From Deltaproteobacteria bacterium (GTDB taxonomy: Bacteria > Desulfobacterota > GWC2-55-46 > DRQE01): a stretch of 46,085 nucleotides of DNA. Numbering within the stretch: position 1 is the stretch's first letter; every line of letters starts with the position of its first letter. The stretch lies in NCBI GenBank assembly GCA_015492245.1, contig WGFM01000020.1, positions 1 through 46,085 of the forward strand. Reading direction: 5' to 3'. A model generated the notes under the pieces. The model was not told where the DNA came from and ran no database searches. It saw only the letters and a list, made by a program, of their open reading frames with translations. A program made the position numbers and the translations under genes. Shown here piece by piece: positions 1-7,082 of the stretch.

Positions 1-141
1 ACCACCATTCTTCTACCAGGCCCGTTGACTCTGGAGCATGCTATGACAGAGTGTATATTCAAAAGTGTATTCACCTTGGCACAACTTGATTCTTTTGGCA
101 AACTCTGACGGAAAAGGTCTGGAGAACCATGTAAGGCAGGT
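1..141. other. Left edge, no gene recognised
   Basis: I see no convincing coding region, RNA gene or strong terminator here. The stretch lies downstream of the leftward DUF2997 gene. It may be an intergenic spacer or the 3' side of a gene that continues outside the window. Confidence 0.4.
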
Positions 142-321
142 TCACCGCTCTTCTATCTTTATCTTCTCCTCTCCCTCAAGCTCTTCCTTTACGGTGAAGA
201 CCTCCACGGTGCCAATGAGACGCTTGAGGTGCTCGGCGATTTCACGGCAGTCCTCGAATATGGTGGCATCTATCTCCACCTTTCCATCGGGTCTTATGCG
301 TATCCTTATCTCTCTACTCAT
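142..321 (-). CDS. DUF2997 family small protein
   Basis: This is a 59-residue acidic protein that starts MSREIRIRIRPDG and has a central patch around residues 20-35 (DCREIAEHLKRLIG). The opening 'IxIxPdGkve.....' strand pattern and the size match DUF2997, a family of unknown function often found beside Ycf35-like proteins. I chose the ATG at 321 over the TTG at 327 because a GAGAGG-like ribosome site sits 6 bases before it. It is the last gene of the leftward set, 10 bases after the Ycf35-like gene, so it is probably co-transcribed with that gene and the AAA-M41 gene. No catalytic residues are visible. An adaptor or substrate-binding role is inference from context only. Confidence 0.7.
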   Translation of the reverse strand: MSREIRIRIRPDGKVEIDATIFEDCREIAEHLKRLIGTVEVFTVKEELEGEEKIKIEER

Positions 322-331
322 GGCCAACCTC

Positions 332-670
332 TCAGCCTTTAAGAAGGATTGATATGGAGCCTGCGCTCTCTTTCTCCTCGGCTATCTCAAAGTCCAGGGG
401 CAGGTGTTCCTTTATGCCCACATAGGCGTATATCTGCCTGAGTCTTTTTGAGAATTGAGAGACCACCCTTGCATCCCCCTGTATCTGGTAGCAGCCTGTC
501 TCATCGAGCACAAGGGTGAGTATGTCTCCATCACGGTCTACCCGTATCCTGTCCTTCACAGGCAGAAGTTCGTATTCTGTTATCTCCCCCCTCTCTTTGA
601 GCTCTTCAAGGGCTGCTACGATGAGTTCCTTGTTCTTGAGCTCTGTCCTTACCACTGTGAAGAAAGACAT
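332..670 (-). CDS. Ycf35-like (DUF1257) protein
   Basis: This 112-residue protein begins MSFFTVVRTELKNKELIVAA. That resembles the N-terminus of the Ycf35/DUF1257 family: a short 'MSxFs.i.T.ikd...L..aL' start followed by a beta-rich body and the D-G-D-I-L-T-L-V segment. The family is known from plastids and cyanobacteria and has no established biochemical role. The gene lies 20 bases after the AAA-M41 gene and 10 bases before the DUF2997 gene on the same strand, with an AGGAG site upstream of its ATG. The three genes therefore look like one transcript. There are no membrane segments or metal motifs. Its function is unknown; its neighbours suggest it works with the ATPase-peptidase. Confidence 0.72.
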   Translation of the reverse strand: MSFFTVVRTELKNKELIVAALEELKERGEITEYELLPVKDRIRVDRDGDILTLVLDETGCYQIQGDARVVSQFSKRLRQIYAYVGIKEHLPLDFEIAEEKESAGSISILLKG

Positions 671-690
671 CTCAAGCGGTGCTCCTTTTT

Positions 691-2826
691 TTAGTTTACC
701 TGGTTCTCCCTGAAGAATCCAAGGAGTCTGTCGCTATTTATGAGCACATTCTTTTCAAGCTCTCCAACGAGTCTTTCCAGCACCTCCCTGTTTCTTGCTA
801 TACAGTGTTCCGTCTCTTCCTGCACATTGTTTATGATGCGCTGTATATCGTCTATGACATCCTTGCCAGAGGTGAAGGCATAGTCCTGGAGTTCCACAAG
901 GGAGGTGTTCTTCATTATCTCACCGAACCCGTATTCCACCACCATCTTCTTCGCCTTCGATGTGGCGGTTACCAGGTCCTGCGAGGCACCAACCGTCTTC
1001 GATTCGTGTCCATATAGCTCGTCCTCTGCGGCCATGCCACCGAGGATAACCCCTATCTCCTTTTCGAGGTCTCGCCTGGTGAAGGTGCTTATCATGGAGC
1101 TGTCTGCAGGTATGAAGGCGTTGTAGTCTCTGTGGTTGTCTATGGATATGAACACGGGCACCTCTTTGAAGTGATACCACATCATTATGGTGTGTCCTGC
1201 CTCGTGCACGGCTATAAGGTGTTTTTCCTTCTTCGTCATGATCTCTGCCCTCTGTTTGAGTGGTGCCTGTGAGGCAGGCCGTGCCCTCTGTAGACTCCAC
1301 TGGCGGAGCCGCTCTATCTCCTCTTTCTTGAGCACCGAAATGGGGGTGATGTTCCTTGTACACTCAAGAATGGTCTGCTGCGAGACCTCGAGTGAGGAGA
1401 TGGCATCTATCATGGTCTCCACCTCTTTTGTCTCCCTGCCGTCGTGCATGCTGTTGAATGTGGCAACCACGGCGTCCTTTACCGCCTGCTCTATCTCGGC
1501 ACCTGTGAAGCCCTGGGTATTGTCAGACAGCTCTTTGAGGTCGAACCTGGAGGTATCCTGCCCCCTCTTTTCAAGGTGTATGCGGAATATCTCCTCTCTT
1601 TCCTCCTCACTCGGAAGGTCGACAAAGAAGACCTCGTCGTAACGGCCCTTTCGCCAGAGCTCGGGGGGGAGGTTTTCCGGCTCGTTTGCCGTGGCTATGA
1701 CGAAGACGGGTTTTTCCTTCTCCTGGAGCCATGTGATGAATGTGCCGAACACCCTTAGCTGGGTGCCGCTGTCTCCCTGAAAACCTGTAACACCTCCGAA
1801 GGCCTTGTCTATCTCGTCTATCCACATGATACAGGGGCTTACCGCCTCTGCAAGCTGTATACAGCGCCTTATGTTCTTTTCGGACTCACCAACGGTCGAG
1901 CCGAAGAGCTTTCCCACATCCATCCTCAACAGCGGCAGGTTCCATATACCTGCCAGTGCCTTACAGCAAAGGCTCTTTCCAGAGCCCGGCACACCTATGA
2001 GCAGAAGCCCCTTTGGAACCTCGAGCCCCAGGGCCTCTATCTTGTCCTTGCTCAGCCTGAAGATGTGCTCCCTCTCTATGAACCATCTCTTGAGGTCATC
2101 GAGGCCACCTATGTGGTCTATGGTCTCACGATGGGGGTAGTAGTCCAGTATCTTCTGTTTCTTTATTATCTGCTGTTTTTCGTCCTGTATGTACTTGATG
2201 CAATCCTCGTTGAGAACGCCGTTGTTGAGGCTTATGGCCTTTCTCACCACCCTCTTTATGTTGTCCATCGAAAGCCCCTGGAGGGACTTGTAGAGTATGG
2301 AGCGCGTGGAAGAGGGCCACCCTTTGGGTATGAGATGGCCATAGGTCTTCGAGACCATCTCCTCTATCTCGTTGTAGTCAGGCAGACTCAACTCTATGAC
2401 AACGATGTCCTCTTCGAGCTCCGGGGGTATCTCACCGAGGGTGGGTGAGAGGATACATACGGTGTTTATTGAGCGCTGCTCCTCTATTGCAGCAGGCAGA
2501 TCACGGAACCTTCTCAGGAACTCGTGGGAGTGGAAGTAGCCACCTATGTCTTTAAGGAGGAAGAGGTTGTTGGTGTCTTCACTCCTTACTATCCTCTCCT
2601 CTATGGCCTGCAGGACCTTCTCTCTGCCTATGTACTCCTTCTTTCTCTTCTCTCCACCCTGAAGCCCCTTGGAGACAGACCAGCACCAGTAGTTAGAGCC
2701 CATCTGGCCGGCTATCTCTTCCACTATCCTTTCGACCCTTCTCTCCTCGAAGGAGACAAGCCACACCACAGGATACCTTGCCTCGATGTGGATCTTGAGT
2801 TCCTTTGTGAAGTTCTCTGTATTCAT
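691..2826 (-). CDS. Ycf46-like AAA+ ATPase fused to FtsH-type M41 zinc peptidase
   Basis: This 711-residue protein has three parts. Residues 1-240 resemble the N-domain of Ycf46-type ATPases ([17 protein letters not shown] near residue 15). Residues 241-510 are an AAA+ module with Walker A GVPGSGKS (278-285), Walker [10 protein letters not shown] (332-340) and an arginine-finger-like WRKGRYDE (391-398). Residues 530-711 are an M41 peptidase domain with HEAGH (541-545), the helix GGMAAEDEL and a third zinc ligand Asp617 in SQDLVTAT. All zinc ligands seen in FtsH are kept. There are no transmembrane helices, so this is predicted to be a soluble ATP-dependent protease, unlike the membrane FtsH encoded 2.4 kb away. 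It heads a leftward set with Ycf35-like and DUF2997 genes. Substrates are unknown. Ordinary Ycf46 proteins lack the peptidase, so the fusion is notable. Confidence 0.85.
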
Positions 2827-5204: not shown

Positions 5205-7082
5205 ATGAAAAACCAGGTATATAAAAATATAGCCATGTGGATAATCATAATAGCAACGGTTATCCTCATGTTCAACCTTCTCAACTACAAGGAGACCACA
5301 CCCCGTGAGGAGATAGACTATACCACATTCCTCAAGTCCCTTGACGAGGACAGGGTTACCGAGGTTGTAATCCATGGTCCTGCAATAAAGGGCAAGTTCA
5401 AGGATGGCTCGCTCTTTGCCACCTATATGCCTGACGATCCCGAGCTTGTCTCGAAACTCAAGGAAAAACAGATAAGGATAATGGTTGAGCCCCAGACCGA
5501 AAGCCCTGGCTGGGGGACCATACTGGTCTCATGGCTGCCCATGATACTGTTCATAGCCCTGTGGATATTCTTCATGCGACAGATGCAGGGCGGCGGTGGC
5601 AAGGCCATGAGCTTCGGTAAGGCGAGGGCAAAGCTTCTTACCGAGAGCCAGCATACAGTAACCTTCAAAGATGTGGCAGGTGTTGACGAGGCGAAGGAAG
5701 AGGTAACTGAGATTATAGACTTTCTCAAGGACCCGAAAAAATTCACAAAACTCGGCGGCAGGATTCCCAAGGGTGTGTTGCTTGTGGGCCCACCCGGAAC
5801 AGGCAAGACCCTTCTTGCAAAGGCCATTGCAGGGGAGGCCGGGGTGCCGTTTTTCAGCATCTCAGGGAGCGATTTCGTGGAGATGTTCGTGGGTGTTGGT
5901 GCCTCAAGGGTGAGAGACCTCTTCATACAGGCAAAGAAGAATGCACCATGCATAGTCTTCATAGACGAGATAGACGCGGTGGGTAGACACAGGGGCGCAG
6001 GCCTGGGTGGTGGACACGATGAAAGGGAGCAGACATTGAACCAGCTCCTTGTTGAGATGGATGGGTTCGAGAGCAACGAGGGTGTTATAGTGATAGCCGC
6101 AACCAACCGCCCCGATGTGCTGGACCCTGCCCTCTTAAGGCCAGGCCGTTTCGATCGCACCGTGGTGGTGCCAAAGCCGGATATCAAGGGAAGGATAGAG
6201 ATACTCAGGGTGCACACCAGCAAGACCCCTGTTGCCGACGATGTGGACCTTGAGGTCATAGCCCGTGGAACCCCAGGATTTTCAGGGGCAGACCTTGCAA
6301 ACCTTGTGAACGAGGCAGCCCTTCTTGCTGCAAGAAGGGGCAAGGACAGGGTGGGAAAGCAGGAGCTCGACGAGGCGAAGGACAAACTCCTTATGGGCAA
6401 AGAGCGCAAGAGCATGATAATAAGCGAGGAGGAAAGACGCACCACCGCATACCACGAGGCAGGCCATACCCTTGTTGCACGGCTTATCCCAGGGACAGAC
6501 CCCATACACAAGGTCTCCATAATACCCAGGGGCATGAGCCTGGGGCTTACCCAGCAGCTGCCAGTGGACGAAAGACATACCTACAGCAAGCAGTACCTTA
6601 TGAACAATATAGCCGTCCTCATGGGTGGAAGGGCTGCAGAGGAACTGGTGCTCCATCAGCTCACAACAGGGGCAGGCAACGACATAGAGCGGGCGACAGA
6701 GATAGCCCGAAAGATGGTCTGCGAGTGGGGAATGAGCGAGAAACTCGGCCCCTTGAACTTCGGAAAGAGGGATGAGCACATCTTCCTTGGTAAAGAGATG
6801 GCACAACCCAGAGAGTTCAGTGAAGAGACAGCTCGTGAGATAGACCAGGAAGTAAAGAACGTAGTGAACGAGAACTACGAAAGGGCACGAAAGCTGTTAG
6901 GCGATAATATAGAGACCCTCCACAAACTTGCCAGCACCCTCCTTGAGAAAGAGGTGATTACAGGCGAAGAGATAGACAGGATAATATTCGGGGACCACAT
7001 TCCACCAGGTATAAAGACCACATCCAGCGAGAGGCTCAAAGAGGATGAGGAGGAAGGCACAAAATCTGACCTGGCAAACTGA
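5205..7082 (+). CDS. ftsH: ATP-dependent zinc metalloprotease FtsH
   Basis: FtsH is a membrane-anchored AAA+ protease for membrane quality control and regulator turnover. The 625 residues match the family. There is an N-terminal membrane helix (about 9-27), a periplasmic segment, a second helix (about 104-123), Walker A GPPGTGKT (195-202), Walker [11 protein letters not shown] (251-260), the SRH with RPGRFDR, and the M41 site HEAGH (417-421) with Asp493 as third zinc ligand. A GGGAG-rich leader precedes the ATG. It is followed by folP after 140 bases. The order ftsH-folP-cdaA-cdaR-glmM is a known gene order in other bacteria. Confidence 0.97.

Follow-up and report, generated by a model that had tools for sequence, protein, structure and literature searches.

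A predicted soluble AAA+/M41 protease fusion is encoded in a conserved five-gene operon with Ycf35-like, DUF2997-like, radical-SAM and Hsp70-like genes

The window, by which we mean the whole stretch of 46,085 nucleotides analysed, starts at a contig edge (G000:C20:1), and the genes described here lie next to this edge on the reverse strand. The gene of a 711-residue fusion protein is followed after 20 bases by a Ycf35-like gene and, after another 10 bases, by a DUF2997-like gene with its ATG at 321, which is the spacing given by an initial annotation of this DNA. The start of a fourth gene, truncated by the contig edge, had been missed. The features are:

691..2826, reverse strand: fusion protease gene, 711 aa, ATG start; predicted degenerate AAA+ module (D1), active AAA+ module (D2) and M41 zinc protease
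2152..2826, reverse strand: residues 1-225, predicted degenerate AAA+ module without Walker A/B, p97-D1-like fold (AlphaFold2 model, VIA-align)
1270..2151, reverse strand: residues 226-519, predicted active D2-like AAA+ module (Pfam AAA and lid, conserved motifs)
1972..1995, reverse strand: Walker A GVPGSGKS (278-285), in 45/45 fusion ORFs
1879..1905, reverse strand: pore-loop segment FGSTVGESE (308-316), T-V-G in 45/45 and FVG in the local FtsH
1813..1833, reverse strand: Walker B C[IV][LM]WIDE (332-338), from aligned orthologues and fusion ORFs
1642..1653, reverse strand: arginine finger RKGR (392-395), in 45/45 fusion ORFs
736..1242, reverse strand: M41 peptidase domain (residues 529-697), Pfam PF01434, E 3.9e-21
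1192..1206, reverse strand: zinc site HEAGH (541-545), in 45/45 fusion ORFs
976..978, reverse strand: Asp617, presumed third zinc ligand (GASxDL), invariant in 18 orthologues
332..670, reverse strand: Ycf35/DUF1257-like protein, 112 aa, by family-level homology (AlphaFold2 pLDDT 92)
142..321, reverse strand: DUF2997-like protein, 59 aa, with invariant Gly13 and Cys25, by profile matches of relatives
1..74, reverse strand: 5' end of an NrdG-like radical-SAM gene (NTLLNIHSVIACSRVNGPGRRMV), likely GTG start at 74-72, cut by the contig edge

The initial annotation had described a soluble AAA+/M41 fusion with an intact HEAGH motif and Asp617, and the analysis bears this out. Residues 274-403 matched Pfam AAA (E 1e-30), together with AAA_lid_3. 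The domain search set beforehand as the test of residues 520-711 returned Peptidase_M41 at 529-697, with 76.2 bits against a cut-off of 29.9. H541, E542, H545 and D617 are unchanged across 18 aligned fusion orthologues (69-77% identity to the window protein). Besides the motifs listed above, the DE of Walker B is present in all 45 long fusion ORFs and T[VL]GASxD in 44 of them. No membrane helix was found in the fusion, whose highest 19-residue Kyte-Doolittle value is 1.27 versus 2.48 for the local FtsH, and the Pfam search gave no FtsH_ext match. The protein scores 189 bits, below the FtsH equivalog cut-off of 600, and its M41 region has diverged from that of the local FtsH (26-28%).

This canonical membrane FtsH is encoded separately at 5205-7082 (forward strand), 2.4 kb from the fusion gene and on the opposite strand, so that the fusion is no replacement for FtsH. 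Housekeeping genes lie beside the operon, namely ftsH and those of era- and der-like GTPases. An assembly artefact was ruled out by the recovery of 50 fusion loci, with 45 long fusion ORFs. Taken together, the conserved motifs argue for a real and conserved soluble protein-unfolding protease, which is probably active. If so, the fusion is a natural soluble M41 protease; proteases of this family are otherwise known as membrane-anchored (PMC9020784).

The AlphaFold2 model of the fusion has a mean pLDDT of 80, with parts of M41 at 51-56. Strands and helices alternate in modelled residues 1-225 as they do in an AAA+ core, and a helical lid is also present. VIA-align placed model residues 2-515 onto D1-D2 of p97/Cdc48 with Z 26-27 and rmsd 4.6-8.7, about 470-486 residues being aligned in most tandem rows. 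Because the model superposes on D1-D2 and the Walker motifs are absent, we read the N-terminal part as a degenerate AAA+ module, and the chain is predicted to run from a dead D1 through a live D2 to the M41 protease. Compared by sequence only (hhalign), D1 and D2 gave a weak and suggestive signal (P 20%, E 0.001), and it is thus the structure model that settles the identity of D1. What the initial annotation called a "Ycf46-like N-domain" is thus read as a degenerate AAA+ module and not as an unassigned domain. The tandem modules are shared with p97/Cdc48/VAT, from which the fusion differs by the loss of Walker motifs in D1, the lack of a p97 N-domain and the appended M41.

The top Foldseek match of the fusion model was FtsH. 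Like the FtsH, i-AAA and m-AAA proteases, the fusion carries M41 behind an AAA+ module and has both HEAGH and the distal Asp; it differs from them in having no transmembrane helices, a degenerate AAA+ module in front and a T-V-G pore loop. Ycf2-FtsHi motor chains were also among the Foldseek matches. Together with the divergence of M41 and the non-aromatic pore loop, they raise the question of whether the M41 part is structural, the fusion being a remodelling ATPase with an inactive protease ring like FtsHi of plastid motors. We hold this to be improbable: inactive FtsHi proteins have lost the HEAGH-type motif, which is kept here in all 45 ORFs, and Asp617 is invariant in the 18 orthologues.

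A scan of public genome contigs yielded 50 fusion loci and 28 FtsH loci. The former come from MAGs labelled Deltaproteobacteria, Proteobacteria, Desulfuromonadales and Nitrospirae/Nitrospiria. In all 50 fusion loci the gene order, wherever the contig is long enough to show it, is fusion, Ycf35-like, DUF2997-like, radical-SAM and Hsp70-like; the four partners are present in 47, 45, 44 and 43 loci, respectively, and at none of the 28 FtsH loci. The operon thus comprises five genes, and the idea of a self-contained proteolytic machine, formed from the three genes first seen, does not stand, as radical-SAM and Hsp70 genes belong to the same unit. Within the order, the fusion occurs in 39 of 48 genomes, and in 29 of the 33 that are at least 90% complete. 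The co-occurrence of the linked genes that the initial annotation had put forward for a genome survey was found: within the order, 37/39 genomes with the fusion and 0/9 without it have the Ycf35-like gene (Fisher p 3e-8, a guide only because related genomes are not independent). A widespread distribution of the fusion was not seen. Past the 50 loci identity falls from 53-95% to 24-35% and the remainder are ordinary FtsH-type M41 proteins, in a scan that could miss divergent fusions with other motifs.

The names given to the two small proteins hold at the family level, less so for the window proteins themselves. The Ycf35-like protein of the window gave no match to PF06868 (DUF1257) in a Pfam search, but 13 of its 18 aligned relatives did, and an hhalign profile comparison of the family with DUF1257 resulted in P 96.9% and E 1.7e-10. 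These comparisons of sequence identify the first small gene, at the family level only, as a divergent DUF1257/Ycf35 relative. Similarly, the window DUF2997-like protein reached 23.3 bits against PF11211, just below the cut-off of 24.1, while all 15 aligned relatives matched. Foldseek of the Ycf35-like model found no PDB match at E <= 0.001 (best 0.012, TM 0.46), so no function could be drawn from its fold. Short I.I..DG.V-type segments are shared by DUF2997, the C-termini of the radical-SAM proteins and the small protein encoded upstream of the AAA genes that lack M41 (L076 6325-6510, reverse strand, and L074 5062-5274, forward strand); they possibly represent one hairpin common to all.

Gene 4 is complete in a genome of the same genus (G004; L262 816-1442), where a single contig carries the Ycf35-like gene and, downstream of it, genes 4 and 5 side by side. 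For G000, the genome from which the window comes, the remainder of gene 4 and gene 5 were located on contig C13. Gene 4 encodes a protein of ~190 aa with FFQGCX3CX2CFN in 18/18 loci listed. Its L091 representative matches Fer4_12 and Radical_SAM, and has NrdG as top NCBIfam match (119.7 bits, below the cut-off of 126.1). The CX3CX2C motif is shared with NrdG and glycyl-radical-enzyme activases; a C-terminal extension sets gene 4 apart from NrdG. NrdD and Gly_radical were each found in just one of the 10 fusion genomes tested, and neither in G000. An assignment of gene 4 as NrdG or glycyl-radical activase was rejected, the usual partners being mostly absent. Since the normal activase clients are mostly missing, the radical-SAM protein may be an activase relative that modifies or senses something in the pathway of the fusion.

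Gene 5 encodes about 890-930 aa, with helical repeats and an HSP70 domain (PF00012; ATPase-domain match at E 7e-23 in L090 and 2e-27 in L091). Its top NCBIfam match is the Fe-S chaperone HscA, with 106.6 bits, above DnaK with 84.9; the HscA cut-off is 708. Such matches, with those of gene 4, bear on another explanation, in which the system is a processing or assembly enzyme serving the maturation or repair of Fe-S or radical proteins. The client, either the radical-SAM protein or its modified product, would be held by an HscA-like Hsp70 and removed or trimmed by M41 and the AAA+ ring. We consider this unlikely, although it is the alternative to which we give most weight. Known M41 peptidases have a broad client range, the HscA score is far under its cut-off, and neither a scaffold gene nor a client gene was identified. 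In its favour are the rank of HscA, the likeness of gene 4 to glycyl-radical activases whose usual clients are missing from most fusion genomes tested, the invariant Cys25 of DUF2997 proteins, and the situation in cyanobacteria, where, unlike in the fusion operon, the DUF2997-ycf35 pair sits with the ferredoxin gene fed7 (PMC4284462).

Other observations were made around genes 4 and 5. In G000 (C13:14769-19424; L263, L264), the two genes are separated by an insertion made up of a DNA methyltransferase gene and a further ORF, which may encode a restriction enzyme. No stop codon separates the radical-SAM frame from that of the methyltransferase, and the open frame runs over 445 codons. The insertion is absent from L262 of the same genus. 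After the Hsp70-like gene (L262 4220-5764; L264 42-1445, reverse strand) comes the gene of a protein with a CxxC zinc ribbon (IQCENCGTKYQLDDSKI) followed by a long Glu-rich region.

Most homologues of the fusion in the phylum sample are proteins of ~500 aa that end where M41 would start. DUF1257-like, DUF2997-like and Hsp70-like ORFs were found near 12 of the 17 M41-less phylum loci fetched, and no separate M41 gene was detected near the modules of L074-L089 and L093. Partners from the set (DUF1257, DUF2997, radical-SAM/4Fe-4S, Hsp70) recur near M41-less relatives in the phylum, cyanobacteria, Bacillus, Actinobacteria and viral contigs. On plasmids, the M41-less AAA gene lies with DUF1257 and DUF2997 in Geminocystis, with DUF1257, DUF2997 and 4Fe-4S in Bacillus licheniformis, with DUF2997 and 4Fe-4S in Paenarthrobacter, and in the arrangement GrpE-Hsp70-DUF1257-DUF2997-AAA in Pseudanabaena. 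Among 80 viral contigs, the fetched flanks showed DUF2997-like ORFs in 24 contigs, DUF1257-like ORFs in 21 and radical-SAM ORFs in 5. A quick tree of 74 rows placed the fusions together on one side of a single long branch with a support of 100. This single clade fits a model in which M41 was gained once, as a later add-on to an older AAA+ protein. Because most homologues lack M41, the ancestral function would not be proteolysis, and the older AAA+/DUF1257/DUF2997/radical-SAM/Hsp70 set is best read as a widespread remodelling module.

The occurrence of M41-less modules on plasmids and in viral contigs, and the match of PADLOC IetA models to the AAA domain of the fusion, could suggest an anti-phage or mobile-element system, an IetA-like AAA+ protein with a protease that cleaves something upon infection. 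This appears very improbable: the IetA matches are confined to the shared AAA domain, the window copy sits beside housekeeping genes, and the operon is found in most genomes of the order (29/33 at the completeness given above).

Our preferred reading, to which we assign a probability of roughly 0.62, is that the fusion acts as a soluble, probably hexameric, ATP-dependent zinc protease in one pathway with the Hsp70-like protein, the two small proteins and the radical-SAM protein, M41 having been attached once to an older remodelling module. It takes as its starting points the observed sequence, motifs, fold model, operon, linkage and single clade. D1, the inactive AAA+ module, would stand in for the membrane anchor of FtsH as an assembly and docking platform. 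A parallel is provided by YME1L, which is inactive without its transmembrane span unless a soluble hexameriser substitutes for it (hexYME1L), M41 enzymes needing an oligomerising element (PMC5095350). The active D2 ring would hydrolyse ATP and pull the substrate, which the C-terminal M41 ring would cut. Caution is required as to processive unfolding because pore loop 1 reads T-V-G in all 45 ORFs and lacks the FtsH-type phenylalanine, the residue of FVG that grips the substrate in FtsH (PMC9020784). The Hsp70-like protein with its helical repeats probably holds or delivers clients, the Ycf35-like and DUF2997-like proteins are probably adaptors or regulators, and the NrdG-like radical-SAM/4Fe-4S protein would act in the same pathway.

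Ycf46 and Ycf35 are conserved in both cyanobacteria and algal plastids, DUF2997 in cyanobacteria, and we know of no agreed biochemistry for any of the three; DUF2997 is seldom named in the literature searched. The likeness of the fusion to Ycf46 (slr0374)-type AAA proteins was assessed with AAA genes of cyanobacterial plasmids that lie beside DUF1257/DUF2997; to these the fusion is about 40% identical in its N-terminal and AAA regions. The operon differs from these sets by the fused M41 and by a gene 5 that joins helical repeats to Hsp70. Loss of Ycf46 lowers the activity of the carbonic anhydrase EcaB, and the ycf46 operon is stress-induced (PMC7496141); fed7 and ycf35 are SigD-dependent (PMC8875361). 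The initial annotation had extended the function guessed from the fusion to the whole Ycf46/Ycf35/DUF2997 set. The part concerning ATP-driven remodelling is strengthened, because an Hsp70-like gene is present in every long-enough operon and GrpE/Hsp70 lie beside the module in Pseudanabaena; only remodelling, not proteolysis, carries over, because most relatives are without M41.

No description of the fusion architecture or of the five-gene system was found in the literature searched, which left most subscription journals outside, and nothing joining DUF1257, M41, Hsp70-like and radical-SAM proteins. Taken singly, the enzymatic components are of known kinds. These data suggest that the fusion and its four travelling partners constitute a previously undescribed protein quality-control machine. 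By tying an AAA+ protease, a radical-SAM protein and an Hsp70 to the Ycf46/Ycf35/DUF2997 set, the strictly conserved operon yields a concrete prediction that is testable in Synechocystis and in vitro. More tentatively, and with less certainty than for the soluble protease, the AAA+(Ycf46-like)/DUF1257/DUF2997/radical-SAM/Hsp70 set might form one widespread undescribed remodelling machine of bacteria, cyanobacteria and viral contigs, turned in one clade into an Hsp70-fed three-tier soluble protease whose clients the radical-SAM protein would mark or control. If this one-machine proposal is true, the fusion is a Rosetta stone for the whole gene set.

The M41-less relatives also occur in unusual settings. 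In several viral contigs (L178, L179, L181, L182, L232, L247, L253 and others) the AAA gene lies with DUF1257- and DUF2997-like genes, and the module thus travels in viruses. On the Treponema succinifaciens plasmid pTRESU01 (L172), an M41-less AAA gene and a 4Fe-4S gene sit amid contractile-injection genes (VgrG/Pvc8-family, baseplate protein V). Another unusual fusion is a 1611-aa ORF (L089 5285-10120, reverse strand) that carries an AAA relative near its C-terminal part.
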